Shown piece after piece: positions 1,742 through 29,042 of a stretch of 64,000 nucleotides of DNA. The stretch's first letter is position 1. Each line of letters opens with the position of its first letter. The notes under the pieces were generated by a model. The model did no database searches. It was not told where the DNA came from and saw only the letters and a program-made list of their open reading frames with translations. The DNA is taken from positions 1-64,000 of IMG/VR virus record IMGVR_UViG_3300022752_000056; one strand, 5' to 3'. The position numbers and the translations under genes were made by a program. Origin of the DNA: a virus.

Positions 1742-2875
1742 ATGAGAATAAATGAAGTTATTGTTGTTGACCCACAACTAGATGAAATAAGTGCCTTTGG
1801 TGCAGGATCAGGTATAGGCAAGGTAGCCGGAAATGTAGTAGGTGGTGTTAAAGATTTTTGGGCAGGAGCTAAACAGGGATATAAAGATGCTCGTGCAGGT
1901 TTTGTAACAGGTCAAGGTGCAGACGATTCGGGAACAACAAGTGCTAATACATCAACAAACACAGCAGATAATGGAGGACAAGCGTCATCAATAGGTGGTG
2001 GGCAGGCTTCTTTTAGTGGAGGCGGTTCCTCTGGTGGTAGTGGAGCGGCTACAGCAGTGGGACAGACAGCTCCTGCTGCAGGGGGCAGCGCACCAGCAGC
2101 TTCGGCAGGAGGACAAGCAGCCGCACCTGCCACACAGGCAGCACCTCAAGCAGCCGCACAGCCGGATGAAGTAGAACAATTAAAAGCAACAATAGCAAAA
2201 CTTACACCACAACAGAAACAAGAAGTATCAGCAGCATTAAAAGATCCAGCAGCACAACAAGCTAAAAATGATGTTGATGCTGTCAGTGATCAAGAAATTG
2301 CTCAGTCTACCGCAGGTAGAACAGATGCTCAGTTAGCAGCAGACGCAGCTAAACCTAATCTTGATCCTAGAGTCAAAGCCGCAGTAGATGCAGAAATTAA
2401 GAAACGTCAGAGTCAAAAACCTGCCGCTGCTCAACAACCAGCTGCTCAACAACCAGCTGCTCAACAGACAGCTGCTCCTGCTACTCAAGCACCAGCAACA
2501 GCTACAGGAACCAGTGTTGATACAAACAAGTTAAAACAACAAAGTGCTCAACAGGCACAAGCAGCACAGGCTGACAAACAAACAGCCCAACAACAAATTG
2601 CCGCGACACAAGCGGCCAACGCAGCAAAAGCCAAACAAGATGCGGCTGTAAAAGCAGCAAAGGACGCTGCTATGGCTAAACCAGGATTTCAGCAGACAGC
2701 ATCTGACAAATTAGCAATTCAAAAGGCACAGCAAATGGGCATAAGAGAGGCAGTAAGTGAAAGTAAACAACCTAAAAAACCTGCTCCTAAACAACCTGCT
2801 AAGAAACCTAGTCCAGGTAAGAAGAAAAAAGTTATAGTAGAGTTTAACAGTAAGTTTCTAGGGCGTAAGATTTAA
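1742..2875 (+). CDS. Ala/Gln-rich low-complexity protein, probable structural
   Basis: 377 residues. After a short N-terminal segment (MRINEVIVVDPQLDE) come a Gly/Ala stretch, then long Ala/Gln/Pro/Ser-rich tracts including tandem AAQQP repeats around residues 228-245, and a strongly basic Lys/Pro-rich C-terminus (about 335-377) that could bind DNA or RNA. The only intergenic DNA before it is 8 bp, so it is cotranscribed with the 465 gene. Its stop codon overlaps the convergent gp51-like frame by 4 bp. No known family. The disordered composition and basic tail would suit an internal head protein or a disordered linker, but this is inference. Confidence 0.6.
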   Translation: MRINEVIVVDPQLDEISAFGAGSGIGKVAGNVVGGVKDFWAGAKQGYKDARAGFVTGQGADDSGTTSANTSTNTADNGGQASSIGGGQASFSGGGSSGGSGAATAVGQTAPAAGGSAPAASAGGQAAAPATQAAPQAAAQPDEVEQLKATIAKLTPQQKQEVSAALKDPAAQQAKNDVDAVSDQEIAQSTAGRTDAQLAADAAKPNLDPRVKAAVDAEIKKRQSQKPAAAQQPAAQQPAAQQTAAPATQAPATATGTSVDTNKLKQQSAQQAQAAQADKQTAQQQIAATQAANAAKAKQDAAVKAAKDAAMAKPGFQQTASDKLAIQKAQQMGIREAVSESKQPKKPAPKQPAKKPSPGKKKKVIVEFNSKFLGRKI

Positions 2876-3102
2876 AAAAACGGTAACCCTGTTTTCTGAG
2901 CTGTTTCTAAATTTTCTTCAATTATCTTACTCATTATTTCTCTGTCTTCTTGTGATAACTGATAAGACTGCTCAACGCTTACACTACCTCTCATATACCA
3001 ACAAATTTTAAATAATTCCTTTTTTATGGCTTTTATATCTTGATCATACTGATTAGCAAGATTTTGTATACCTTCTAAATCAAGATATAAAAGCCTTAGA
3101 CG
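2872..3102 (-). CDS. 51: gp51-like baseplate hub assembly protein in the -1 frame of gp26
   Basis: 76 codons on the minus strand, from CGT at 3102 to TAA at 2874-2872. The peptide contains KICWYMRGSVSVEQ, then a charged helix, and ends TGLPFF, as I recall for the small gp51-type proteins that follow gp26 in cyanophage-like T4 relatives. The frame opens after a TGA at about 3116-3114 and has no ATG, GTG or TTG before the internal ATG of WYMRG (about residue 37). It therefore has no ordinary start for the full domain. It lies -1 relative to gp26 and overlaps its end, with a slippery run at 3108-3102. Most economical reading: it is made as a C-terminal extension of gp26 by -1 frameshifting. Confidence 0.65.
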   Translation of the reverse strand, partial: RLRLLYLDLEGIQNLANQYDQDIKAIKKELFKICWYMRGSVSVEQSYQLSQEDREIMSKIIEENLETAQKTGLPFF

Positions 3103-3953
3103 AAAAAAGTTGAAGGATCAAACATTAACGGAACTGTTATAGTTGGTTCATTATACCCTTGCATTTTTACATTTTCAGGAGTTTCAATTGTAATAGGTTT
3201 AATAGTATTATTTTCTTTTAACATTTCTAAGTGATTTTGGATAGTATTAAAAAGATCTTTGTCTATATTATCTATAAATTCTTTAATGTGTAAAGGATTA
3301 TCTGTACTACCTGCTGTGCTGTCGATTCTAAAAACACTATCTTTAATCACTCCAATAGTAACTTCTGTTAATTTTGCAAATGATTTTCTAAACATATCCA
3401 TCTTTTCAGTTTGATCTAATTTTTCATCATTAGCTAACATTAAAATTTTTTGAGTTTCAAAACTTTTTAAACTGCTTTCGCTGATTAATTTATAATTTAA
3501 TGGTTTAACAAAAATTGTTAAATCAGAACTAATTTGTATAATAGGATCCCACTTTATTGAATTATATAAATTGTCTAATATAATTCTTAAATCTACTTCA
3601 TATTCAAGCTCGATATCACCTGGTAAATTAATAGGAGTTAGCATTTTTTCTCCGTAAGTGGCTATTCTTATAGCAATTAAAATTGTATCTAAATCTACAC
3701 TAGGAACTAGCCATGCATTTTTAATATTAGGCATACAATGTTGAATAACATCGACCACTGCTTGCCCATTCATTAAAGCATCAGGTACTTTGAGCAATAA
3801 TTCATCCTTTGCAGTCATTGAATAAACAGGATATTCGTTATTTTCTGTAGGAATTATCGAACCTTGTGGCCAATATTCTCCATTACTAGGCAAGCGTATA
3901 AAAATTTTAGGTTGACGCATGTATCCTGTTAAAGGATTAGTAGATTTAGGCAT
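3096..3953 (-). CDS. 26: gp26-like baseplate hub / tail assembly protein
   Basis: 285 residues from ATG 3953. The longer ORF from 4001 runs into the late promoter at 4011-4004, so the second Met (MPKSTNPL) is chosen. The N-terminus, with NPLTGYMRQPKIF and RLPSNGEYWPQG, matches the T4 gp26-type baseplate family (T4_baseplate in Pfam) as I know it from cyanophages. In T4, gp26 and gp51 act in baseplate hub assembly. The gene is divergent from the tape-measure gene, with 83 bp between start codons. Its 3' end carries the slippery site that leads into the gp51-like frame. Confidence 0.7.
   Translation of the reverse strand: MPKSTNPLTGYMRQPKIFIRLPSNGEYWPQGSIIPTENNEYPVYSMTAKDELLLKVPDALMNGQAVVDVIQHCMPNIKNAWLVPSVDLDTILIAIRIATYGEKMLTPINLPGDIELEYEVDLRIILDNLYNSIKWDPIIQISSDLTIFVKPLNYKLISESSLKSFETQKILMLANDEKLDQTEKMDMFRKSFAKLTEVTIGVIKDSVFRIDSTAGSTDNPLHIKEFIDNIDKDLFNTIQNHLEMLKENNTIKPITIETPENVKMQGYNEPTITVPLMFDPSTFFV
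3102..3108 (-). other. Putative -1 frameshift heptamer T TTT TTC
   Basis: On the minus strand the last gp26 codons read ACT TTT TTC GTC TAA. T TTT TTC fits the X XXY YYZ slippery pattern in the zero frame. Slipping back one base makes the next codons CGT CTA AGG, which enter the gp51-like frame with no intervening stop. The site is two codons before the gp26 stop. Confidence 0.55.
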
Positions 3954-4036: not shown

Positions 4037-6334
4037 ATGGCTGAAGTAACAGGATCAATAGGCAATCAACCAGTAGAACTTAATAATGCTGCTACTGAGG
4101 CTACTCTACGACTGTTGTTACAGGCAGTACAAGGTAAGGGCGGGGCTGGAGGTGTAGCTAATCTAGCAGGGCAAACAATAAATCCTCAGACTGTAGCGCA
4201 GGTTAACAGTAGTTTATCGACCATGCAACGTGCTGGTCAAATGGTTGGTCAAGGTTTTGGAGCCTTGGGTAATGCTATCAGTGCGAACAAGGAAGGTATA
4301 CAAAATTTTGTTAGCAAGTTAAACGAAGGTAAAGCCGAAGTAAGTGATATGATCGGCATGTTTAAAAACTTGCCAGGACCTATAGGTAAAGTAGCAAAAG
4401 GATTTGAGTTACTAGCAATTTACCAACAAGAGAATTTTGCTGCTTATCAAAAGGTCACAGCAGCAGGTGTAAGTTTTGGAGGAAGTTTAACTGATTTAAG
4501 AGTAGCTGCTGCTGCAACGAGTTTAACGTTACAAGATTTTACTTCTTTAATGAAAGAAAATAGCAAAGCATTTTTACTTTTAGGTGGGAATGTAAACGAA
4601 GGAGCTAAAAATTTTGTATTGTTCAGTAATTCACTGACTCAAGGAGAAACGGGCAGGCAACTTAGAGCGTTAGGGTTAACCACTCAAGAAATAAACAGTG
4701 GATTCGCTGCTATGATTGCGTCACAAGGTGGACTTAGCAAAAAAGAACAACAAAATTTAGATCTAGTTACAAAAAGTAGCAAAGATCTATTCTTACAAAT
4801 GGATGCCTTAGCACAACTTACAGGAATTTCTAAAGAAGAACAAGAAAAAGAAATGAAAGAACGTGCGGCCAACGCAGCAATTCAAAATTATCTAGCTAGC
4901 TTGGAACCAGCAGAAAGAGCCAAGGCCAACGCAGCCATGCAGGAAGCATTTGCTAGAGGGGGTGAAGGAGCTAAAGAAGCATTGGCTAGCAAATTAATGG
5001 GCATTCCACCATTAACAGATAGAGCTCAACAATTTGAAGCAGTTATAACAGGCGGCAGTGAAGCACTTGGCAAACTAGCCAGTGATGTAAAAAATTCAAG
5101 TAAGTCAGTTGAAGATGTACAAAAAACTGGAGTACAAATATCTAGATCGCTTCAAAAAGCAGGACAAGAGAATCAAGACCTTTTTAGAGTCATGGTTATG
5201 TCTGGTGATACTACTATGATGCAAACTGCCTCTAAGGCGTTAAGTGAAGCAACAAGAGCGAGAACTCAAGATATTAATACCTTGAGTGACGAAGAAGCAA
5301 GATTAGCAGCGGTAAGACAAGATCAACAAAAGAGAATGAATGATAGTCAAGCTAAAGACATGGCTTCTGCAAAAGCAGCATTAGATGAATTAACAAAAGG
5401 TTTTCATGAAATGTTAAATCCTATTGTCAGTGCCTTAACTCCTGTATTAAGTGCATTGGCTCAAGGACTCAAAGATGTATTGTTACCCGTGTTTAAAACT
5501 GTAGGCGATGCATTAACTTTTATGAAGAATAAGTTCGATGAACTAGGCATTAAGGTTGTAGATACAAGCAAACTTTTAGCTGCTTTGGTAGCAGCAGGCG
5601 CTGCTTACGGAATTTATAAAATGGCCATACCAGGAGCTGGCGGTGGCGGAGGTGGCGCAGGTGGCGGTAAAGGGCCTCTAGGATTACCTGGTTTAAATGT
5701 TCCAGGATCTAGTGCTTCTAGTCCATTGTATGTTGTAGTTGTAGGTCAAGCTCCTGGAGGTCCCGGCCTTCCTGAGTTACCAGATAAAGGAGGAAAAGGA
5801 TCTCCAGGTAAGCAAGGCGGTGGCGGTGGTGGTAAAGATATCGGAAGCAAAATGGGTAATATACTCAAGGGCGTTAAAGGTCTCGGAGTAGGTACGCTAC
5901 TAGGTATAGGTGGCGACCTAGCTGCTGACGCCTTTGGTAGAGATACAACAGCAGGTAAATCTGCTGACACCATAGGTACAGCGGCAAGTTGGGCAGGTAC
6001 AGGAGCAATGTTAGGTAGTGTAGTACCTGGACTTGGCACAGCACTTGGTGCAGGAGTAGGAGCCGTAGCTGGAGGTGCTTACGGATTATATAAAAACTTT
6101 TTTAATGACAAAAATCCGGAAGAAGGTATGCCTAAAATGGCTTCTGGAGGAGTTATAGTCGGTGAAAATGGAGCTGAGGCTATTATTCCTTTAACAAATG
6201 AAAATGCTCTTCCGGGTATTAAAGAGTTAAATACTACTATGAACGATATTCTCCGCTATATGAAAGACACAGCTGAAAATACTAAGAAGGCCGCTGAGGC
6301 CACACAAAATCTTAGCGGTGATTTGTTTGCATAA
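4037..6334 (+). CDS. Tail tape-measure protein (gp29-like role)
   Basis: 765 residues. The N-terminal half is largely alpha-helical and Ala/Gln/Lys-rich. A hydrophobic stretch at about 508-530 is followed by a Gly-rich linker (about 535-605) and a second Gly/Ala hydrophobic region (about 610-685). Near the C-terminus is MASGGVIVGENGAEAIIPL, a motif commonly seen at the ends of tape-measure proteins. It sets tail length and is threaded through the tube. Its position beside the gp26/gp51 hub genes and just before the portal gene fits. Sequence similarity to T4 gp29 itself is not evident by eye, so the symbol is withheld. Confidence 0.7.
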   Translation: MAEVTGSIGNQPVELNNAATEATLRLLLQAVQGKGGAGGVANLAGQTINPQTVAQVNSSLSTMQRAGQMVGQGFGALGNAISANKEGIQNFVSKLNEGKAEVSDMIGMFKNLPGPIGKVAKGFELLAIYQQENFAAYQKVTAAGVSFGGSLTDLRVAAAATSLTLQDFTSLMKENSKAFLLLGGNVNEGAKNFVLFSNSLTQGETGRQLRALGLTTQEINSGFAAMIASQGGLSKKEQQNLDLVTKSSKDLFLQMDALAQLTGISKEEQEKEMKERAANAAIQNYLASLEPAERAKANAAMQEAFARGGEGAKEALASKLMGIPPLTDRAQQFEAVITGGSEALGKLASDVKNSSKSVEDVQKTGVQISRSLQKAGQENQDLFRVMVMSGDTTMMQTASKALSEATRARTQDINTLSDEEARLAAVRQDQQKRMNDSQAKDMASAKAALDELTKGFHEMLNPIVSALTPVLSALAQGLKDVLLPVFKTVGDALTFMKNKFDELGIKVVDTSKLLAALVAAGAAYGIYKMAIPGAGGGGGGAGGGKGPLGLPGLNVPGSSASSPLYVVVVGQAPGGPGLPELPDKGGKGSPGKQGGGGGGKDIGSKMGNILKGVKGLGVGTLLGIGGDLAADAFGRDTTAGKSADTIGTAASWAGTGAMLGSVVPGLGTALGAGVGAVAGGAYGLYKNFFNDKNPEEGMPKMASGGVIVGENGAEAIIPLTNENALPGIKELNTTMNDILRYMKDTAENTKKAAEATQNLSGDLFA

Positions 6335-13845: not shown

Positions 13846-16800
13846 ATGGCCAAGACTTTTTATTCAAACACCCCAACTGGTTATACTGGAGCTACTCCAG
13901 TTTCATCAACTGCATCGTCATCTACATTTGTAACAGACATTTCAGAAAATTATTTTTTAAATGTTAAAAAAGTTGCCACTGTAAAAGCTAATGATTTAAT
14001 TATCACTGCTATTACAAATACAAATATTTTAACAGGACAGCGTAATGTAATCAATGTTCAAGAAAATAATTTTCAGAATGAAATTAATCAAATTACAGGA
14101 AAAGTTGAATCTTTTATTGGTAATAATGTAGATATTATAGTAGGAGGTGTAGGCACATATCAATATGCAAATGGATATGGAGTAAATGTATTAGGTGATG
14201 CTTCATTTACTGTAACTAACAGAATAAATTTATTGAGTACCTTAGGTGTAACCGTAGGTAGTAGTACAAACACAGAAGTAAAATTTATAGGCAGAGTGAT
14301 AGAAGACTTTTTACCTAAATATGATAATACATCATCTTTAGGCAATGCCAGTTTAGCCTGGAGCACGGTAACCACATACGACCTAGACTCATTAGGTTCA
14401 GCCAATGTAGATAACCCTTTCGGAATAACTTATAATCCTGCCAATAGATTTGGTATGGAACAAGGATACACATTAAATCAAACCATTGATCAAAGAAAAG
14501 CGGGTGCTGCTTACTTTGCTGGCGGTGTAGGTATAGAGAAGGACCTTAATGTAGGCGGCAATATCTATGGTAGGATTTCATTCGCTATAACCAGTACCAA
14601 CTTAATTATAACTGCCACGAACGCAGATATAGAATACTCGCCTGTATTTTCTTTAAGCACAGGTCAACAGTACCTATTCATAGATCAAGAAGCATATTTT
14701 AGTCCTGCTCAAAATTTGCAAGGTTTAAAATACAATCCACAGTATGGAAGATTAAGAGTAGAACGTGTTAATGTAATAAAAACTGATCCTGCTGACTTAG
14801 AACAAAACGATTTAGATTATGAAACAGAAGGCAACGGCCTTAATAGTAATCCCGGTAGAGCTGCACTTAAAGTTGCCGGTGGTGTTATTATACAAAATAA
14901 TTTAATTGTTCAAAATAAAACAACCGTTACAGATTTGACCATAGCTGACAATCTAACAGCAGCTCTTAGAGTAAACGGCGGCGTTAGTGTAGGATTAAAT
15001 GCTTATGTAAAAGATGAATTAGAATCCGACGAGCTAGTACCGCATTCAAATAACACTGGAAAAATTGGTTTCTACGATTCCTCTACCTCTACAAGAGCAT
15101 GGAGTGAAGGATATATAAATGAGATTTATACTAGAATTATAGGAAGTAGTTCTAGTACAATTGAAATTCGTCCAGGCAATCTACAAGAACCGATTCCTCA
15201 AAATCCTTTAACTGAAATATACGGAAATATCAGAGTTCGTGGTGCAAATCCTGTAGGTACAGCACCAGTTGTAACTAATGTTCTGTATGTTACAGTAGAC
15301 GGGAATGATACAAATGACGGTAGAGCACAGGATCCAAGTCGAGCATGTAGAACAATTGGTGGTGCTGTACGTAGTCCATATTATCAATCAGGCACCCAAA
15401 TCAAAGTCAGCGCAGGTTTTTATTTAGAAGATAATCCTATTAGATTGAAACCATATACTTCTATTATGGGAAGTGATATTCGTACAACTTTTATTGAACC
15501 TATCAATAAAACTCAAGATTTATTTCATGTAGAAAGTGGATGTTATATTGCGTTTTGCACATTCTTAAATGGACGAAGCGGGTTGTTAGAAGGTGATTAT
15601 GCTAGCGAATTTAACAGAGGTGCTTATTGTACAGCATTTCCTCCTTTAACGGGTGAAGATCGTATAGATCTTTTTCACAGTCCATATATTCAAAATTGTA
15701 CTAATCAATCAGGTCCGTGGTTGAAAGATGGTACAATGTTCGTACCTAATCAAACTGTTCAAATTCCTAGAGCGGTAGGCACAGGAACCTGGGTTAAAAA
15801 TACTACAACTATAGTGGTAAAAGTTTCAACCGGTACTATTTCGCCAGGTATGAGTATTAATGCAGGACAACAAAATCCAGGGTTCTTTAACGCAAGAACA
15901 TTAATGCTTGCGAATAAGCCCTTTATACAAGAACAAGTAGTAGCTTATGTAGATAAGACATTTAATACAGGAACTTTTACTTACAATGCAACAAAGTGTA
16001 AAAGAGACATAGGATTAATTGTAGATAGTATAGGCCTTGATCTACTTTATAACACAGAAAGTGACAGTAGATTTTCTGGATTACAATATTATGGTCAAGG
16101 TAATATTAGTTTTCCAGGTGAACTTACTACAACTACTCAGGCATTTTCTTATTTAGGTCAACTAATTAGAAACACAGCGGTATCTGTAAGTGGCTTTGTT
16201 GCATATGGTACCATAATAGATACCTTGTTTTCTACTTTAACAAATATTTTATCAAATCCTAGTGCGTTGAATAATATTACAGATAAAATAGTTAACAGTA
16301 ATAACGGTCTTCCATCAAATACTGCTTCATATGTTACAACTTATAACGGAATCTTAGCTAATAGAGAAACATATAAAACTCAAGTTATCAGTTGGATACA
16401 GACAAATCATCCAGCACATGTTTATAACTCTAGTACCTGTGCCAGAGATGTTGGGTATGTAGTAGATAGTGTGGCCTTTGACTTTTTACACGGCGGTACA
16501 AAGCAGACAATTAAATCTGGGATTTATTACTATAACTATGTCAGCACAGCTACAACAACAAATGATATTCCACAAACATTCGCCGCGTACAATTATATTA
16601 AGAGATTGGTTCCTTATATTGTAAAAGGACAACAGGTATTACCTAGCACGTTGTATCAAAACACAATTTCTCAAGTTACCGCTGTTTTGAAGGCAGGTGA
16701 GTACGAAGCAGAACAATTACAAAATAGAATAGATGTTATCACAGGAATTTTAAGAAACGGTCCTAATTATACCACTCGTATTCCTATGAATACAACTAAA

Positions 16801-19800
16801 AATCCTAGTTTAGAAGCATTAAATGCTTATAATTCTTTACAGGCCAACAAAAACTTTTTAAAAGCAGAAGTAACAGCATTTATAAATTCTACGGCAGGAA
16901 CTTTCAATTATAGTAGAGAAAAATGTTATAGAGACGTAGGTATATTAGTAGAAAATCTTGCCTATGATGTAGCATTTGGCGGAAATGAAAAGTCTAGAGA
17001 AAGTGGACTAGCATATTATGATGGAGTCATTAGTTTAATTCAAGGACAAGAAACACAAACCATTAGTGCCATAGATTATTTAAATGACTTAAGTCAATTA
17101 ATTATTACAAATTCTACAGCTACAAACCTATTAGGTATGACCGCTACCGCTGCACAAGTAATTAACACAGCGTTAATAGGTGGTTCTGTAGCCAGCGCAA
17201 GTTTGCAAAATGCAATTAATGTTACAACAAATATTATTGCTAACGGACCAGATGCAGCACCTGACATTTATAATAGTCCAGGACCAGATGCAGCATTTGT
17301 CAGTGCAGAAATTTTAATGCAGGCCAACAGAGCATATTTACAAGAAGACACAATTAATTATGTAAACAATTTAGTACAGTCATTTCCTTACAGTGAACGT
17401 AAATGCCGTAGAGATACTAAATTAATTGTCGATGCAATCGCTCAAGATTTAGTTTGGCCAACAGCTGGTATGAGTCAAACAACCTTTGCCGGATTACAAT
17501 ATTATAATCAAGATAACTATACCGGTGATATTGAAGCTCAAATTAGGCCAACAATAGATGCCATAGAATATTTAAAAACTTTGAGCACCAAGGTAATTCT
17601 TAATACAACCCCAGCAGATGATTTTAGAACTCCTTATCAAGGAACAGTAACTCAAATAACAACAATTACAGCAGCTACAGTTTATGAAGAAGGCATAGTT
17701 TCTAATAATTATGATATTATTCTTACTATATTAAACGGTACAAGAACTGGGTGGACAGATAGAATTGTTCCTAATAGCACGGCTAGTCAGATTGTTAGCA
17801 CAATAAATGCCTTCAATATTTTACAAAAAAATAAACATTATTTAGGTACAGAAGTAGTAGCCTATGTTAATTCAAGGCATCCTGATTTTACCTACAATCA
17901 GGCTAAGTGTTACAGAGATGTAGGATTGATTACCGATGCAGTATGCTATGATTTACTATATTCGGGTAATAGACAAAGTATTCAAGCAGGACTATATTAT
18001 TACGGATTTAATCCAGGTAGTAGTACCATCCATGGTCAAGAAACTCAAACAATTGCAGCTTATACGAGATTAAAAAATGTTCTAGATGAAATTTTGTTAA
18101 ATCAAGTTGTAACAGTCACAACAGGAAATGTAGCGAAACAAATTTTAACCTTGCCTGCCGCTACTATGAGTGAAGTTACAGAAGCACAAAGAATTGTTAC
18201 AACATTAACAAATATTATTCAAAATGGTCCAGGCGTTGCAACACCTCCTCCAAGTAATATTGCTTTGACAGCTACAACGGTAACTAGTATATTAAATGCT
18301 TACAACATTTTAAAAGCCAATAGAGATTTTATTGCAGATGAAGTTATTGCATTTGTAGATTGGACGTATAATTTAAATTCATTTAATTATAATGAAGAAA
18401 AATGTTACAGAGATGTAGGATTAATTATAGATGCAGTTAGCCAAGATATTTTATTAGGTGGAAATGCAAAGAGTTTAGAAGCTGGATTATCTTATTGGAG
18501 TGCTGGGTATAATTCAGTTGCAGGACAAGAAACAACAACAACCTATGCTATAAACTATGTAAGAGATAAGGTTGTAGATATAATTGCCAATAAACCTGTA
18601 ACAGCTCAAACTCAAACTAATTTAACTCAAACAATAAACACATTTTTTCAATACGGAGAAGAATACGGTCCACAAGAAGCTGTCAAACGAAACTTTAATA
18701 TTATTACAAATATTATTCAAAATGGTCCAGCAGTGGCTCCACCGGTATATGCAGGTGGAGGATTATTCAGTTTAACAGGCTTAAACGGGTCTGATGTAAA
18801 GATAGCTCCAACAGTTGTCAGTGTAACGACTTTAACAAGTAGTACATACAGAATAGGTATTAGCACTGCTACTATTGGTTTTGGTATTAATTCTACCTTG
18901 TACATAGGCGATACTACAATTTACCCATATAGAGATAAGGAATGTGATTTATTAAGTTATCAATATTCTGGAAATACGTCTACCTGGGCACAACGTAAAA
19001 TTGATCAAGTTGGTTCAATGGGAGGAAGTTTAGTAGATGGTGCTGTAATAAGTGATAGAAGTCCTATACAATCATTTGTTTATGACGCATTTACGCAGGT
19101 TACGCAGGGTGGTAGAGGTGTTCATATTGTAAATGATGGATATGCACAATTAGTATCAGTGTTTACTATTTTCTGTTCAACAGGAGTTGAGGTAGAAAGA
19201 GGCGGTATCGCTTCTATTGTTAACAGTAACGCAAACTTTGGTAATATTTGTTTACAGGCACGAGGATATGGTAAACGTAAGTTTAGCGGGCATGTTTATA
19301 ATCCTATAAACAAAGCCTATCCAGAAAGTCCTAACCCAGCATTAGCAGTAACGTTCCCTGATAGTCAGTTCCTAGATCAATATTATCCTACTGGTTACTG
19401 GCCCAATAATTCGCAAATTAGAGTATTTGTACCAGATCCAGAAGATAGGCCTCATATTTCTTTAGTAATGGAAGTTGTTCCACCAGAACAAATTAGAGAT
19501 TATACAGGTGCATTGGTACCACAGGTTAACGAACAAGGATTCCCAGGTTTCTTAAATGCCACAGTGAATACCTCTACCCTAACCACTGGTAGTATCTATA
19601 TTACAGGAGTTAATACCGATGGGGTCGCTGTAGGTAATAATATCTATATTAGAGATCAATATGGAAGCACCACAGGAAGTAATGGGCTAAGTTATGCACC
19701 TACAGGATGTATTGTAACTAAAGTTGATTATCAAAAAATTACATTGAACAAAGCATTAACCAGTGGAGGTGGTGATGTGACAGTAGATGAATTCTTTGAC

Positions 19801-20808
19801 GTATTTGTTTGCGGTAATTCATATTATACTGTTTTAAGTAGCGAAGCTGGGGATAATCCTAAATATAATAGACTAGGTATTCCTATACCACTAGGTGTAA
19901 ACATTTTAAGCACTCAGTCAACTGGAATCGTAGCAGGGGGTGCCACACAACTTGCGGCACACATTGGTGCAATCAATAGATTAGCAACTGCAACACTACA
20001 AGTGATTGTTAATACTCCAATTAGTATTTCAGCAGGAAACACTTCTACACAAACTATTAATAATCTTGTACAAGGGGGAGGCGAAGCATCGGCCTTTATT
20101 GCAGAAAGATTTGGTAATATTGTAAGCATTGTTAGTGCTGCGAATCTAACTGCTGCTGAAAATGTAATTAAGCCTGCTCAACGTACAAAAACTGGACCTA
20201 CTATTCCTGGTGCAGGCAGTGCCATAGAATTAATACAAAACAACATAGAATTCTTAGCAGATGAAATTAGTGCTTGGGTCAAAAATACATATGGATTTGT
20301 ACCTGATGTAAATTATGATGACTACAAGTGTCAGAGAGATGTAAAACTTATACTACAAAGACTTATCTATGATATAGAAACAGGTGGTAGATATAACTGT
20401 GTAATGACTGGATTAAGTTATTGGAACCGAGCAAACACTTACTACATTGTTACTTTAGGAGAAAATGTAACAAGAACAGATTTGTTCCCAGATGGCTCAA
20501 CTGTTAATTTCTATCAGCGCAGTTATATGAGTGCATCAGGATATGTATTTGAATATGTAGGCGCTGGTATTGATTACGGAGCACTACCGCAACGAGGTGT
20601 AGCAGATCCTAATCAGGGTAAAGAAGTTGTCATGTTAGATAGCGGTAAAGTATTCTTTACAAGTACAGATCAAAACGGTGATTTTAGAATTGGTCCGCAG
20701 CTTGTAATTAGTCAAGCTACTGGTGTATTAAGCGGAAGAACATTTACAAGATCATTATTTGCTAACATGACACCATTTATATTAGCTATTGAAGGCGGAG
20801 GCCTATAA
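13846..20808 (+). CDS. Giant virion protein: beta-helix with inserted helical repeats
   Basis: 2320 residues. Residues about 215-400 contain three degenerate copies of the GGVGIxxxL fibre repeat. At about 475-580, VLYVTVDGNDTNDGRAQDP starts a pectate-lyase-like beta-helix (IKVSAGFYLEDNPIRL, TSIMGSD). From about 685 to 1640 six copies of a roughly 140-residue helical repeat follow, each with KCxRDVGLIxDxxxxDLL and GLxYY. A second beta-helix part (SPIQSFVYDAFTQVTQGG, GVEVERGGIASI) spans about 1690-1830, and a seventh repeat lies near 2125-2195. It is probably a tail or head fibre or a side-arm. Similar proteins occur in cyanophage-like T4 relatives; their function is unknown to me. Confidence 0.7.
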   Translation: MAKTFYSNTPTGYTGATPVSSTASSSTFVTDISENYFLNVKKVATVKANDLIITAITNTNILTGQRNVINVQENNFQNEINQITGKVESFIGNNVDIIVGGVGTYQYANGYGVNVLGDASFTVTNRINLLSTLGVTVGSSTNTEVKFIGRVIEDFLPKYDNTSSLGNASLAWSTVTTYDLDSLGSANVDNPFGITYNPANRFGMEQGYTLNQTIDQRKAGAAYFAGGVGIEKDLNVGGNIYGRISFAITSTNLIITATNADIEYSPVFSLSTGQQYLFIDQEAYFSPAQNLQGLKYNPQYGRLRVERVNVIKTDPADLEQNDLDYETEGNGLNSNPGRAALKVAGGVIIQNNLIVQNKTTVTDLTIADNLTAALRVNGGVSVGLNAYVKDELESDELVPHSNNTGKIGFYDSSTSTRAWSEGYINEIYTRIIGSSSSTIEIRPGNLQEPIPQNPLTEIYGNIRVRGANPVGTAPVVTNVLYVTVDGNDTNDGRAQDPSRACRTIGGAVRSPYYQSGTQIKVSAGFYLEDNPIRLKPYTSIMGSDIRTTFIEPINKTQDLFHVESGCYIAFCTFLNGRSGLLEGDYASEFNRGAYCTAFPPLTGEDRIDLFHSPYIQNCTNQSGPWLKDGTMFVPNQTVQIPRAVGTGTWVKNTTTIVVKVSTGTISPGMSINAGQQNPGFFNARTLMLANKPFIQEQVVAYVDKTFNTGTFTYNATKCKRDIGLIVDSIGLDLLYNTESDSRFSGLQYYGQGNISFPGELTTTTQAFSYLGQLIRNTAVSVSGFVAYGTIIDTLFSTLTNILSNPSALNNITDKIVNSNNGLPSNTASYVTTYNGILANRETYKTQVISWIQTNHPAHVYNSSTCARDVGYVVDSVAFDFLHGGTKQTIKSGIYYYNYVSTATTTNDIPQTFAAYNYIKRLVPYIVKGQQVLPSTLYQNTISQVTAVLKAGEYEAEQLQNRIDVITGILRNGPNYTTRIPMNTTKNPSLEALNAYNSLQANKNFLKAEVTAFINSTAGTFNYSREKCYRDVGILVENLAYDVAFGGNEKSRESGLAYYDGVISLIQGQETQTISAIDYLNDLSQLIITNSTATNLLGMTATAAQVINTALIGGSVASASLQNAINVTTNIIANGPDAAPDIYNSPGPDAAFVSAEILMQANRAYLQEDTINYVNNLVQSFPYSERKCRRDTKLIVDAIAQDLVWPTAGMSQTTFAGLQYYNQDNYTGDIEAQIRPTIDAIEYLKTLSTKVILNTTPADDFRTPYQGTVTQITTITAATVYEEGIVSNNYDIILTILNGTRTGWTDRIVPNSTASQIVSTINAFNILQKNKHYLGTEVVAYVNSRHPDFTYNQAKCYRDVGLITDAVCYDLLYSGNRQSIQAGLYYYGFNPGSSTIHGQETQTIAAYTRLKNVLDEILLNQVVTVTTGNVAKQILTLPAATMSEVTEAQRIVTTLTNIIQNGPGVATPPPSNIALTATTVTSILNAYNILKANRDFIADEVIAFVDWTYNLNSFNYNEEKCYRDVGLIIDAVSQDILLGGNAKSLEAGLSYWSAGYNSVAGQETTTTYAINYVRDKVVDIIANKPVTAQTQTNLTQTINTFFQYGEEYGPQEAVKRNFNIITNIIQNGPAVAPPVYAGGGLFSLTGLNGSDVKIAPTVVSVTTLTSSTYRIGISTATIGFGINSTLYIGDTTIYPYRDKECDLLSYQYSGNTSTWAQRKIDQVGSMGGSLVDGAVISDRSPIQSFVYDAFTQVTQGGRGVHIVNDGYAQLVSVFTIFCSTGVEVERGGIASIVNSNANFGNICLQARGYGKRKFSGHVYNPINKAYPESPNPALAVTFPDSQFLDQYYPTGYWPNNSQIRVFVPDPEDRPHISLVMEVVPPEQIRDYTGALVPQVNEQGFPGFLNATVNTSTLTTGSIYITGVNTDGVAVGNNIYIRDQYGSTTGSNGLSYAPTGCIVTKVDYQKITLNKALTSGGGDVTVDEFFDVFVCGNSYYTVLSSEAGDNPKYNRLGIPIPLGVNILSTQSTGIVAGGATQLAAHIGAINRLATATLQVIVNTPISISAGNTSTQTINNLVQGGGEASAFIAERFGNIVSIVSAANLTAAENVIKPAQRTKTGPTIPGAGSAIELIQNNIEFLADEISAWVKNTYGFVPDVNYDDYKCQRDVKLILQRLIYDIETGGRYNCVMTGLSYWNRANTYYIVTLGENVTRTDLFPDGSTVNFYQRSYMSASGYVFEYVGAGIDYGALPQRGVADPNQGKEVVMLDSGKVFFTSTDQNGDFRIGPQLVISQATGVLSGRTFTRSLFANMTPFILAIEGGGL
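15900..18760 (+). repeat. Six tandem helical repeats within the giant protein
   Basis: Protein-level repeats of about 140-160 residues: a helix like ANRxFIxxEVIAYV, an aromatic-YN-x-x-KCYRDVGLI segment, GLxYY, GQETQT, then a helix ending in NIIxNGP. A seventh copy, lacking parts, is at about 20218-20430. Each copy keeps one Cys before the RD pair. DNA identity between copies is low, so the expansion is old. Confidence 0.75.
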
Positions 20809-22961: not shown

Positions 22962-25900
22962 ATGTCATTGACTGAGATCTCAAGAGACTTTTTTGTTAAT
23001 CGTGGATTAACAACTCTTGGTACTAACATTGTAACATCTAGTACAGGTAATTCTGGAACACTACAAGTAGAAGGTGGTGCGGCTGTAAAATTAAATCTAA
23101 TTGTGGGGTCAACTGCTACAGTTTATGGTCCCACAACAATACTAGATTTTACCAGCGCAACGTCTACACTTTCCGGAGCTTTAACAGTAGCAGGTGGAGT
23201 TGCTATAGGGCAAGATTTATATGTAGGTGGTATAATTTATGGAACTATAGCAGCTGGTCAAGGTGCAATAACAACTAATCAAGCATCTTCCCCCCAATCT
23301 TATTACCTTACTTTTGTAGATAGTAATAATCCAAGTCCGGCCGGAGAACTTTTATATACAAGTTCTACAATCAACTTTAATCCAGGAGTTGGTTTAACAA
23401 TTAATAATTTGACCGAGGCTGTTTCTACTCAAAGCGGTGCTTTTATTGTATCAGGCGGAGCAGGTGTAGGAAAAGATTTATATGTAGGCGGTAATCTTAA
23501 TGTAACTGGAATAATATCCGGTGTAGCCGCTACATTTGCTAGTACAGCTAGTCAAGTTAATACAATTAGAAATTCTAACAATAGCATATATTATCTTACG
23601 TTTGTTGACACAAACAATGCTATTTCTGCCTCTGAATTGGTTTATACCAGTGCGACAATTTCATTTAATCCTAACACAGGACTATCTATATCAAATAACA
23701 CCGCCGCTGTATCATCTACAACTGGAGCATTAGTTGTCACTGGAGGTGCAGCAATAGGCCAAACTTTAAGAATAGCAGGTCCAACACAATCTTCATCTTC
23801 GTTAACAGGGGCATTAATAGTCGCGGGCGGTGCAGGTATTGGTGGTAATTTATATGTAGGTGGAGAGATATTTGCTAATAAACTTACTATACAATTAACC
23901 ACAGTTACTACAACATTAATCGAAACTGATGATATTCTAAAAACAACTAATGTAACAAGCGCAACTTCTACACAAACTGGCGCACTACAGGTGTCGGGCG
24001 GTGCCGGTATAGGACAAAATCTTTATGTAGGAGGTGACTTATTTGTAAGCAGAATAAGAACAACATTAACAACAAATTCTTTTTCAACCACAACCGGAGA
24101 AATAGTTACACAAGGAGGTATAGGTGTTGGTCAAAATCTAAATGTTGGTCAAAATCTTACTGTTACTCAAAATTTATTTGTAGGCCAAAACCAATCTATA
24201 ATAGGTAGTCTACAAGTAGGTGGTAGATTTACAGCATCAGGTATAACAAATATTACAAATACAACTGCTGCTACAAGTACATTATCCGGAGCACTTGTTA
24301 TTTCCGGTGGAGTAGGTATAGGACAAGATTTATGGGTAGCAGGAGATATATATTCTAATAGATTAATAGTTCAATATACAACTATTACCACAGTTTCTAT
24401 TCAAACAGATGATATTATAAGAACTTCAAACACTACATCCTCTATCTCATCTACAACTGGAGCAATTGTATCATTAGGTGGAATAGGTATAGGAGAAAAT
24501 TTATTTGTAGGTGGTAAGTTAAGTGTTTCAGGACTTACCACAATAACAAATATTACCAGTGCTACAAGTACAACTACAGGCGCATTACAGGTATTAGGTG
24601 GTGTAGGAGTACAGGGCGATGTCTATGCAAGAAACTTATATAGTAATGGCGTTCTGGTAGGTGCAGGAACTGTTGGCAATCCATATTCTTTAGTTTTTAC
24701 TTTAACTAATTTAACACTGTCTACTAGTCCTTCAACAGGAGCATTACAGATAAGAGGTGGAGTAGGTATTGAACAAAACCTTTATGTAGGCGGACAGGTA
24801 AACATAACAGATAGTACCGAATCAGTGTCAACTATTACAGGGGCACTGGTAGTTGCAGGCGGCGTAGGAATAGGAAAAAATATAAATGTTGGTGGTGGAG
24901 CAAGAATACAAGGAAGATTTACTACATCTGGTATTGCAAATATATTAAACACAACTGCTTCAACTTCTACCCAAACTGGTGCGTTAGTGGTTTCAGGAGG
25001 CGTCGGTATTGGTCAAGATCTATATGTAGGTGGAGACATCTATGCTAACAAACTTACTATACAATTAACAACAATTACAACAACATTTGTAATAACAGAT
25101 GACGTAATTCAAACAATTAATACAAGTTCTTCATTATCAACTACCACAGGTGCATTGGTCATAGCAGGCGGAGCAGGTATAGGTCAAAATTTAAATGTAG
25201 GTAACGATCTCACAGCAAAGACCTTAAGACTTTCTAGCAGATTTACCAGTACAGATGGTATAACGATTACTACAACCACAGCAGCAACTTCTACTCTAAC
25301 AGGTGCATTAATTGTGGCTGGAGGTGTCGGTATTGGACAAGATCTTTACGTAGGTGGAGATATATATTCAAATAAATTAGTTGTACAATATACCACGGTC
25401 ACAACTACATTAATTCAAACAGACGATGTAATTCAAACTTCAAATACAACATCTGCTATTTCTACACAGACAGGTGCATTAGTTGTCTCGGGAGGCGTTG
25501 GTATAGGCGGAAATCTTCATGTGGGAGGACAAATAGTCGGCGCCATAAGTGCTACCGCAGCAACAGCTACTACATTGCTAACCTATGGAAACCCATTAAA
25601 CACGTTATTTTATCCTACATTCGTTGATAGTAATAATTCATCTCCTACTGCTGAAAATTATTATACCAGTGCAACTTTATCATTTAACCCTAATGTAGGA
25701 TTGGCCATAGGTTCACCAACTGCACCAACAGCCATGTTAGACGTAAATGGTGGTGTAAGAATTAGTAATTTAACCACAATAGGTAACACCTTAAATGTTT
25801 TAGGCAACGCACAGGCATTTTCTACATTATCTGGTGCTATAACAGTTCCGTTTGGTGGTATAGGGGTAGGTGGTAATTTAATTGTAGGAGGAAGTTCGCA

Positions 25901-28900
25901 GATACTAGGCAAACTTACAGTTACAAATACAATGATTGTTTTAGATACGACTAATTCAATCAATACTGTAACAGGTGCGTTTGTTTTAGCCGGCGGTGCA
26001 GGTATAGGTCAAAATCTTTATGTCGGTGGCGGATTAAGAGTCACAGATGGATTTACTGCCAGCGGAATTATTAATTTTTTAAATTCTACAAATTCTACCA
26101 GCACAAATACAGGAGCAATGACATTATCAGGTGGCGCTGGTATAGGACAAAATTTATACGTAGGAGGATTATTAAATGTTGTAGGTAATATTACTTCTAA
26201 TGGTTCGATCAGTGCAAATTCTTTTGTCGGTAGTATTAATACTGCTTCAAATTTAGCAGGAGGTTCTTCCGGTCAAATACCATATCAAACAGGACCGGGC
26301 GTTACTGCATTTTTTAATGTAGGAAGTGCAGGAAGTATATTAGTTAGTAATGGGGCGGTAGCTCCTACTTTTAACAACACTCTTACACTTACTAGTCTTA
26401 ATCCTGCCTCATCTACTAATTCGGGAGCTTTACAGGTAGTCGGTGGTGCTGGTATAGGCGGTAGTTTATTTGTTGGTAATAGTGCTACTGTATTCAGCAC
26501 AGCAGCAAGTACTACAACATTAGCAGGTAATGCAGTTTATATTGCAGGTGGACTAGGTGTAGAAAAATCTATATATGTAAAAGGTCCTGCTGTATTTCAA
26601 GATGATGTAATATTTGCAGGTACAACGACCTATGTTTATTCTACACAAACTGTTTTTACAGACAATATTGTAAATTTACATATTCCAAACGCAGGAGACC
26701 CTTATAATCATGTTTGGACAGTAGATGATGGAAAAGATATAGGACACATTTTTCATTATTATGATACCGCAGACAAAGATGCGTTTCTCGGACTTGCGAA
26801 AGATTCTAGATATTTAGAATGGTATAGTGATGGTACGGAATCAGGTGCTATATTTACAGGAACAACCTACGGAATTTTTAAAACAGGCGGTGTAATCTTA
26901 GTAAATTCTACTGCAAGCTCAAACACCGCAACAGGGGCATTGACTGTAGTAGGTGGGGTAGGCATCGGAGGAGCTCTATGGGTAGGCACAACTAGTTTTA
27001 TTAACGGTGCTCAAATATTAACTTCGGCCACTGTGAACAGCTTTGTAACAGCTGGTGTTACATCTTTAACAGCAGGAACAGATACTGCGGTAAGTGCAGC
27101 GTTAGGATCAGTAGTGGTATGGAACACTTCAACATTACAAAGTGTAACAAATCGAGGATCGTCTACAAACAATGCAATTAATATAACGAATACTACTCTA
27201 AGTGTTTCTACATTAACCGGAGCATTGGTTGTTGCAGGCGGTGTAGGTATAGGACAAAATACATATATAGGCGGTGGCCTGCAGGTAACAGATAGATTTA
27301 CTGCTACTAGTATTTCTAATTTTACAGATACTACCAATGCGACTAGTACGACCACCGGAGCATTAGTTGTCTCAGGTGGCGCAGGCATTGGACAGAATTT
27401 ATGGGTTGGCGGTACATTCGCCGCATCTGGAATTACAACATTACCAAATACAACAAATGCTTCCTCAACGACATCCGGTTCACTAAGAGTAGCAGGCGGT
27501 GTAGGAATTGCACAAAATTTATTTGTAGGTAACAATTTACAGGTTTTTGGAATCACAACAATTACCAATACTTCTAACGCAACTAATACACAAAGTGGTG
27601 CATTACAAGTATATGGAGGAGTTGGAATTGGACAAAATCTATATGTAGGTGGTACAATAGTTTCAAATGGTTCAACTGTTTTAACGTCCGCAACTGGCGG
27701 AGTTACTAGTCCATTCGCTGGAATATTTACAATAACAAATACAACTAATGCTGTTTCTACTCAGACAGGTGCTCTACAAGTATATGGAGGGGTTGGAATT
27801 GGACAAAATCTATATGTAGGCAGCGGCACAAATATTACCGGAATTACCACAATTACAAATACAACAAATGCCACTAGCACTACTACAGGAGCATTACAGG
27901 TTGTAGGTGGTGCCGGTATTCAAGGCAATTTACATGTAGGCGGAGACATTGTAGCCAACAGATTAATTATTGAATTAACCACAATAACCACGCAGACTAT
28001 ACAAACTGATGATATTATTCAAACTACAAATTCATCAAATGCTACCAGCACAACTACTGGCGCTTTGAGAATAACAGGAGGTGCGGGACTAGGTGGTAAT
28101 CTATATATCGGCGGAAATCTAAATGTAGTAGGAACTATTAGCGGAACATTATCTGGAAGTATTAATACTGCCACAAATCTAGCAGGTGGGACAGCAGGAC
28201 AACTATTATATCAGACCGGACCAGGAGCGACAGCATTTACAGGTCCGGGAACTGCGGGAAATGTTTTAGTAAGTAATGGTACTTCTGCCCCAACTTATAA
28301 TAATACGTTAACACTTGGCTCAACCACAAATGCAACGTCAACTCAAACAGGTGCATTACAGGTTGTAGGTGGAGCAGGTATAGGACAAAATTTATATGTA
28401 GGTGGCACGTTAAATGTTGGTGGAGCTTCCGGCGGTATTATAACTGGACTTACTGGGCTTACCTCAACGAATATTGTAGTAAGTGGATTAAACAACTCTA
28501 CATCAACTGTAACAGGTGCTTTACAAGTTGTAGGTGGAGCAGGTATAGGTCTTAACCTTTATGTAGGCGGCATTACCATGCTTGCTGGTCTTACAACAGT
28601 GACAAATACCACAGCAGCAACGTCAACTAATTCTGGGGCATTACAGATATTAGGTGGAGTTGGTATAGGTGGTAGTGTATATGCTGGTAGTTTCTTTAGT
28701 TCAGGTTCACAAGTATTGACCACTGCATCAGGGGTAGCTTCAATTACAGCAGGTACAGATACTGCTATAAGCACAACTACTGGAGCTGTTGTAATTTGGA
28801 ATACATCAACATTACAAAGTATAACAAATAGAGGATCAACAACTACCAATGCTGTAAATATAACTAATACCGCAGCCAGTACTTCTACAACCACAGGAGC

Positions 28901-29042
28901 CTTACTTGTTAATGGGGGAGCTGGAATAAGAGACAGTGTTTATGTAGGCAACAGAGTCGGATGGGTGAGCACAACAAATAACAGTGTAGTATATCAGGTC
29001 TATAATGCTGTAGCAAATAGTTTAGATACGGTATTTGGATAA
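22962..29042 (+). CDS. Giant fibre protein of about 33 repeats
   Basis: 2026 residues, almost entirely copies of a unit with core TGALxVxGGxGIGxxL followed by YVGG, spaced about 40-75 residues. I count about 33 copies. Between some copies are second-level modules: NLAGGxxGQxxYQTGPG followed by LVSNGxxxP (two copies), SITAGTDTA with STLQS (two copies), and a TIQLTT/TDDII-type linker (several). Residues about 1205-1305 hold a unique domain (VFTDNIVNLHIPNAGDPYN). It is likely a trimeric beta-structured fibre shaft. The stop overlaps the next start (TAATG). Confidence 0.75.
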   Translation: MSLTEISRDFFVNRGLTTLGTNIVTSSTGNSGTLQVEGGAAVKLNLIVGSTATVYGPTTILDFTSATSTLSGALTVAGGVAIGQDLYVGGIIYGTIAAGQGAITTNQASSPQSYYLTFVDSNNPSPAGELLYTSSTINFNPGVGLTINNLTEAVSTQSGAFIVSGGAGVGKDLYVGGNLNVTGIISGVAATFASTASQVNTIRNSNNSIYYLTFVDTNNAISASELVYTSATISFNPNTGLSISNNTAAVSSTTGALVVTGGAAIGQTLRIAGPTQSSSSLTGALIVAGGAGIGGNLYVGGEIFANKLTIQLTTVTTTLIETDDILKTTNVTSATSTQTGALQVSGGAGIGQNLYVGGDLFVSRIRTTLTTNSFSTTTGEIVTQGGIGVGQNLNVGQNLTVTQNLFVGQNQSIIGSLQVGGRFTASGITNITNTTAATSTLSGALVISGGVGIGQDLWVAGDIYSNRLIVQYTTITTVSIQTDDIIRTSNTTSSISSTTGAIVSLGGIGIGENLFVGGKLSVSGLTTITNITSATSTTTGALQVLGGVGVQGDVYARNLYSNGVLVGAGTVGNPYSLVFTLTNLTLSTSPSTGALQIRGGVGIEQNLYVGGQVNITDSTESVSTITGALVVAGGVGIGKNINVGGGARIQGRFTTSGIANILNTTASTSTQTGALVVSGGVGIGQDLYVGGDIYANKLTIQLTTITTTFVITDDVIQTINTSSSLSTTTGALVIAGGAGIGQNLNVGNDLTAKTLRLSSRFTSTDGITITTTTAATSTLTGALIVAGGVGIGQDLYVGGDIYSNKLVVQYTTVTTTLIQTDDVIQTSNTTSAISTQTGALVVSGGVGIGGNLHVGGQIVGAISATAATATTLLTYGNPLNTLFYPTFVDSNNSSPTAENYYTSATLSFNPNVGLAIGSPTAPTAMLDVNGGVRISNLTTIGNTLNVLGNAQAFSTLSGAITVPFGGIGVGGNLIVGGSSQILGKLTVTNTMIVLDTTNSINTVTGAFVLAGGAGIGQNLYVGGGLRVTDGFTASGIINFLNSTNSTSTNTGAMTLSGGAGIGQNLYVGGLLNVVGNITSNGSISANSFVGSINTASNLAGGSSGQIPYQTGPGVTAFFNVGSAGSILVSNGAVAPTFNNTLTLTSLNPASSTNSGALQVVGGAGIGGSLFVGNSATVFSTAASTTTLAGNAVYIAGGLGVEKSIYVKGPAVFQDDVIFAGTTTYVYSTQTVFTDNIVNLHIPNAGDPYNHVWTVDDGKDIGHIFHYYDTADKDAFLGLAKDSRYLEWYSDGTESGAIFTGTTYGIFKTGGVILVNSTASSNTATGALTVVGGVGIGGALWVGTTSFINGAQILTSATVNSFVTAGVTSLTAGTDTAVSAALGSVVVWNTSTLQSVTNRGSSTNNAINITNTTLSVSTLTGALVVAGGVGIGQNTYIGGGLQVTDRFTATSISNFTDTTNATSTTTGALVVSGGAGIGQNLWVGGTFAASGITTLPNTTNASSTTSGSLRVAGGVGIAQNLFVGNNLQVFGITTITNTSNATNTQSGALQVYGGVGIGQNLYVGGTIVSNGSTVLTSATGGVTSPFAGIFTITNTTNAVSTQTGALQVYGGVGIGQNLYVGSGTNITGITTITNTTNATSTTTGALQVVGGAGIQGNLHVGGDIVANRLIIELTTITTQTIQTDDIIQTTNSSNATSTTTGALRITGGAGLGGNLYIGGNLNVVGTISGTLSGSINTATNLAGGTAGQLLYQTGPGATAFTGPGTAGNVLVSNGTSAPTYNNTLTLGSTTNATSTQTGALQVVGGAGIGQNLYVGGTLNVGGASGGIITGLTGLTSTNIVVSGLNNSTSTVTGALQVVGGAGIGLNLYVGGITMLAGLTTVTNTTAATSTNSGALQILGGVGIGGSVYAGSFFSSGSQVLTTASGVASITAGTDTAISTTTGAVVIWNTSTLQSITNRGSTTTNAVNITNTAASTSTTTGALLVNGGAGIRDSVYVGNRVGWVSTTNNSVVYQVYNAVANSLDTVFG
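23030..28960 (+). repeat. Array of about 33 coding fibre repeats
   Basis: Each copy encodes TGALxVxGGxGIGxxLYVGG or a variant. Some neighbouring copies (for example near 27600 and 27770) are almost identical at DNA level, consistent with recent unequal recombination; others have diverged strongly. The unit recurs in the genes at 13846, 21225 and 31292. Confidence 0.85.

Follow-up and report, generated by a model that had tools for sequence, protein, structure and literature searches.

Gene arrangement at the locus

We analysed a 64,000-nucleotide stretch of DNA from a virus (IMG/VR record IMGVR_UViG_3300022752_000056, positions 1 to 64,000), referred to here as the window. The source is a large T4-like virus of bacteria. 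On the minus strand of the window a gp26-like gene overlaps a second open frame in the −1 phase, and a programmed −1 frameshift very probably joins the two. The gp26-like gene spans positions 3096–3953, with its ATG start at 3953 and its TAA stop at 3098–3096, and its 285-residue zero-frame product is the proposed short tail assembly chaperone. This product belongs to the T4 gp26 family. Pfam PF12322 (T4_baseplate) matches it with an E-value of 5.7e-07 and 29.9 bits, above the profile cut-off of 24.5, and phrog_150 (baseplate hub) matches it at 2.1e-09. The AlphaFold2 model of gp26 is confident, with a predicted local distance difference test score (pLDDT) of 91.5. Its best match in BFVD is a T4-like baseplate hub assembly protein (E-value 1.2e-21), and among viral structures that carry a name the closest are T4-like proteins of the baseplate and of baseplate hub assembly.

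The −1 frame (2872–3117, minus strand) is open from stop to stop and has no usable start. The slippery heptamer T TTT TTC lies at 3108–3102 on the minus strand, one codon before the gp26 stop, and the gp26 frame reads ACT TTT TTC GTC TAA at this site. In a −1 slip the gp26 codons TTT TTC would be re-paired as TTT TTT, and the shifted reading crosses the junction from DPSTFF into RLRLLYLDLEG. From the shift point on, the extension comprises 76 amino acids (RLRLLYL...GLPFF) and ends at the stop at 2872; this C-terminal part of the frame is the proposed long-form extension, and the slip would yield a 360-residue gp26-extension fusion. Structure prediction of the extension gives mainly two long helices, and there is a weak match to Gp41_Mu (E-value 0.13). 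The positions of gp26, of the −1 frame and of the heptamer agree with those in an earlier reading of the letters alone (the sequence-only reading), which had also described the stop-free passage from STFF into RLR.

Conservation of the heptamer and of the −1 phase

Two sets of relatives were compared. The first consists of 95 counted loci, 72 of them distinct, and combines relatives found with the extension (homologues in 80 IMG/VR loci) with isolates from phage records. The heptamer is TTTTTTC in 92 of these, TTTTTTT in two and TTTTTTG in one. The second set of 80 loci was found with the gp26 profile alone, to avoid the bias of selecting on the extension. One of its loci runs off the contig, and the others all have a −1 extension of 76–77 amino acids with a W.MRG core. 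The sequence-only reading had proposed comparing the junction in related phages, and in this comparison both the heptamer and the −1 phase are conserved: six T in frame with an open −1 extension in all 95 first-set loci, and in-frame TTTTTTC in 79 of 79 of the second. Since every counted relative with a readable junction has the T6 heptamer and the open −1 extension, the arrangement of the two frames is not due to chance. Over both sets, TTTTTTC is present in 138 of 141 distinct loci.

The register of the heptamer is kept while its surroundings change. In the first set it stays in frame throughout, although anything between 1 and 12 codons separates it from the gp26 stop. In the 72 distinct loci of that set, the rest of the gp26 frame is free of T TTT TTC, and none of the 21 other Phe-Phe pairs in gp26 of these loci is written in this way. 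Residues F283 and F284 are invariant in the gp26 alignment of relatives, and FFR opens every extension in an alignment of 52 sequences. The same layout is found in the isolates Atu_ph07, Phosso, PA5oct, XaC1, RaK2, 121Q, BF and GAP32, and also in Vibrio 2.275.O, SCTP-2, XacN1, RAS14, cyanophage Sf-FS3, two Rhizobium phages and phiAS5.

Coding selection without a start codon

Of the 81 codons in the −1 frame of the window, only those with indices 41 and 61 (numbering from 0) are ATG, GTG or TTG. Neither lies before the conserved WYMRG core, so the extension domain is not covered from any standard start. This codon census bears out the sequence-only reading on the point and rules out an independent ATG, GTG or TTG start for the window extension. 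Likewise, 49 of 141 distinct loci (about a third) have none of these codons for the extension, and in 14 of the 72 distinct first-set loci a −1-frame stop lies at most three codons upstream of the shift point. The median ratio of nonsynonymous to synonymous substitution rates (dN/dS), taken over 26 pairs with 80–97% DNA identity, is 0.077 in the −1 frame; the remaining frames give 1.73 and 1.75. On this substitution pattern, the extension is under purifying selection in the −1 frame only, which points to its translation.

A stem-loop a few nucleotides past the heptamer

The sequence-only reading had missed a further element. A stem-loop at 3028–3095 on the minus strand, with arms at 3095–3078 and 3045–3028, is the proposed stimulator of the shift. 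Its outer helix in the window is perfect, with 18 contiguous pairs, and begins 6 nt past the heptamer. Folding of the 92 nt 3' of the heptamer gives −26.8 kcal/mol (z = −6.05). An earlier folding test over 70 nt lost the 3' arm of the window's stem and gave weak scores for stems of that class, and a position-specific count of helices was used instead, requiring at least 8 Watson-Crick pairs with a start at +3 to +10 after the heptamer. Such helices are present in 37 of the 72 distinct first-set loci (2.9 expected) and in 60 of 69 new independent loci (2.5 expected), and the commonest helix start is +6. Covariation in the main stem class involves 8 pairs with two-sided changes, with 60 such cells compared with 20.3 in shuffles (0 of 500), in 43 relatives that were preselected for pairing at 7 or more of the first 10 pairs. 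In a smaller set chosen by hand, cells and score point the same way, with 25 two-sided cells compared with 12.3 in shuffles. The 3' arms stand at differing distances by group, and other groups keep the 5' position with 3' arms that are closer.

A probable programmed −1 frameshift and its alternatives

The locus combines a conserved zero-frame X XXY YYZ heptamer, a selected −1 frame without a start, and a nearby downstream RNA structure that is present in many relatives, not in all. These features make it highly probable that a programmed −1 frameshift produces a 285-residue short and a 360-residue long tail chaperone, with the divergent, probable tape-measure protein as likely client. Most ribosomes would translate gp26 to its stop and release the short chaperone. 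A minority would slip by −1 on T TTT TTC, aided by the stem-loop downstream, and read 76 further codons to make the long chaperone. Lambda G/GT and P2 E/E+E' suggest, by analogy, that both products bind the tape-measure protein and that the extension recruits tail-tube subunits. The sequence, its conservation, the coding selection and the RNA covariation are observed here; that ribosomes slip in vivo, how efficiently they do so and that the products act as chaperones is inferred. The frameshift and its lambda G/GT parallel, as put forward in the sequence-only reading, are strongly supported by the near-invariant in-frame TTTTTTC, the −1 phase, the loci without a start, the low dN/dS and the covarying stem.

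Several observations weigh against this reading, in addition to the preselection of the covariation set. The stem is absent or weak in some relatives, such as loci L078, L081, L082 and L095. A Foldseek search of the gp26 model against the PDB finds no solved structure with a matching fold, and profile comparison (hhalign) of gp26 with lambda G and Mu gp41 detects no similarity; common descent with the classical tail assembly chaperones is not supported by these two comparisons. Two phages, examined by hand and outside the 95 counted loci, depart from the pattern. Pseudomonas phage Cygsa01 (L097, 3300–3482) has no in-frame heptamer, and its gp51-family extension directly follows gp26 at an overlapping TAATG, possibly a switch to reinitiation. 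In Microcystis phage Mel-JY01 (L099, 3680–3970) a T7 tract marks the junction and the downstream frame is in +1, an arrangement shared by none of the others examined. Both could represent other solutions for making the two forms.

The extension could instead be a separate protein, made by termination-reinitiation or from a non-standard start near the gp26 stop. The extension does begin near that stop, and 45 of 141 distinct loci offer an ATG in the interval from the upstream −1 stop to the thirteenth codon after the shift. The ATG of 121Q overlaps the gp26 stop, Cygsa01 pairs its TAATG with the lack of an in-frame heptamer, and in several records the extension is entered as a gene in its own right. 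However, no ATG, GTG or TTG is available there in the window or in 48 further distinct loci. The invariant FFR at the shift point and the invariant F283 and F284 of gp26 do not fit this explanation either, nor does a heptamer that keeps its frame at such varied distances from the stop, and a stem at +6 suits slippage rather than reinitiation. We consider a separate protein very improbable.

Transcriptional slippage on the T tract, which would create a fused message, is slightly less probable still. A run of T is required by this model as well as by ribosomal slippage; XacN1 and RAS14 have seven T, and in Mel-JY01 seven T precede the +1 frame. The near-uniform TTTTTTC of the distinct loci counts against it, as polymerase slippage usually takes place on longer T tracts than that of this heptamer. 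Slippage by the ribosome is in keeping with the codon register, with the stem at +6 and with the covariation of that stem. Finally, a sequencing error or a decayed gene, conceivable for a window taken from an IMG/VR virus record, is excluded for practical purposes by conservation: the same break occurs in 141 distinct loci, many sequenced isolates included, and the extension is under purifying selection.

The programmed −1 frameshift can be placed in a wider scheme, for which we see about even chances. The 5' arm of the hairpin would be fixed about 6 nt past T TTT TTC while the 3' arm was re-formed at least three times, with helix ends near +36–42, +54–56 and +73–76; hence the spacing, not the sequence, would be selected. 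The hairpin would drive chaperone frameshifting across large T4-like phages, and T4 would then have swapped the shift for gene duplication into 26 and 51.

Comparison with lambda and P2

The short and the frameshifted long tail assembly chaperones are established for lambda, where G and GT are absent from the virion (PMC5009743). As proposed for the window, lambda encodes a short protein and a −1 fusion beside the tape measure; the lambda slippery site is GGGAAAG, unlike T TTT TTC. The P2 tail protein E/E+E' is also made by −1 frameshifting, and its slippery site is T TTT TTG. The tape-measure gene of P2 follows on the same strand, whereas that of the window is divergent.

Relation to T4 genes 26 and 51

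The sequence-only reading called the −1 frame gp51-like. The name holds for position, length and relatives, and it rests on these because the window extension has no detectable similarity to gp51. A PHROG search of the extension gives no match, and T4 gp51 does not come out ahead of shuffled sequences when scored with a profile built from extensions. The window extension was therefore rejected as a detectable sequence homologue of T4 gp51. Among 52 relatives, one matches phrog_634 (0.0058), which is the gp51 family ('baseplate hub assembly catalyst'). The extensions of Sf-FS3, phiAS5, Rhizobium phage RL38J1 and Cygsa01 also match phrog_634; in the first three the extension comes after an in-frame T6 heptamer, in Cygsa01 it does not.

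T4 genes 26 and 51 are paralogous and lie on opposite strands. Both products match PF12322 (about 200 residues) and phrog_150; of the 282 positions of phrog_150, the gp51 match runs to 280 and the gp26 match to 235, and phrog_634 matches gp51 residues 147–246. An hhalign comparison of the gp26 profile with single T4 sequences gave no information either way, and profiles from the library served in its place. Judged from these profile matches, T4 gp26 and gp51 form a short-form/long-form pair. T4 differs from the window in having two separate genes where the window has one locus with a probable −1 frameshift. A 2016 review treats T4 as an exception to G-T frameshifting in long-tailed phages (PMC5009743). 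T4 gp51 is needed for assembly and is absent from the particle (PMC3004832). Cyanophage gp51 is without the first ~200 residues of T4 gp51 (PMC3037559), which would be explained if gp26 supplies them by frameshift.

In Aeromonas phage phiAS5 (L098, 3702–3884), which we take to be close to phage Aeh1, a phrog_634 extension follows TTTTTTC, though gp51 was reported missing from Aeh1.

The sequence-only reading did not know frameshifting of T4-like gp26/gp51 to be established. The question has been taken up in print: Vladimirov, Gautam and Davidson (2022, Virology 566:9–15) reportedly identified the tail assembly chaperone genes of T4-like phages and proposed short and long forms. The genes and the short/long logic proposed there are the same as in the window. 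Frameshifting is reportedly described, in the abstract of that 2022 paper, as kept in several T4-like groups, with T4 using the separate genes 26 and 51. In our search of the literature on gp26, gp51, tail assembly chaperones and frameshifting, with most papers screened by title and abstract opening alone, no title or abstract opening describes a gp26 frameshift. Frameshifts of this sort are familiar from phage tails and had been put forward for T4-like phages before, and the window is a very clear further example. New here, as far as can be checked, are this phage group, the near-invariant conservation set and the positioned, covarying hairpin.

The data fit a history in which the frameshift is ancestral, many T4-like groups retained it, and T4 exchanged it for a duplicated gene. 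They further suggest that, in large phages, many proteins annotated as baseplate hub belong with the 'hypothetical protein' or short 'hub assembly catalyst' encoded next to them, each pair representing a single frameshifted gene. The cultured relatives 121Q, RaK2 and PA5oct make the frameshift directly testable.

Probable tape-measure neighbour and other features of the window

The divergent neighbour of gp26 (4037–6334, plus strand) is probably the tape-measure protein and the likely client of the chaperones. Its product matches phrog_28 (tail length tape measure) at 3.4e-4 and carries a GGVIVGENGAEAIIPL motif at the C-terminus, and a gene is present at the equivalent position in Phosso, PA5oct and RaK2. 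In gene order and frames, the short form and the −1 long form adjoin this gene as in the lambda G/GT type. On the other side, the extension (minus strand) and the convergent gene at 1742–2875 (plus strand) overlap in their stop codons at 2872–2875, in the palindrome TTTAAA.

Near the start of the window, Rfam RF01718 (Polynucleobacter-1 RNA) matches positions 38–170 on the plus strand with 112.9 bits. The same RNA is found in 6 of 20 related loci (L005 at 5831–5965 on the minus strand, L016, L018, L027, L041 and L047), always on the strand opposite gp26 and beyond the gp26 3' end. It was listed in 2010 for Burkholderiales and for fresh water or estuary samples, and it may belong to this phage group. 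The window also contains two very large open frames, at 13846–20808 (2320 amino acids) and 22962–29042 (2026 amino acids).
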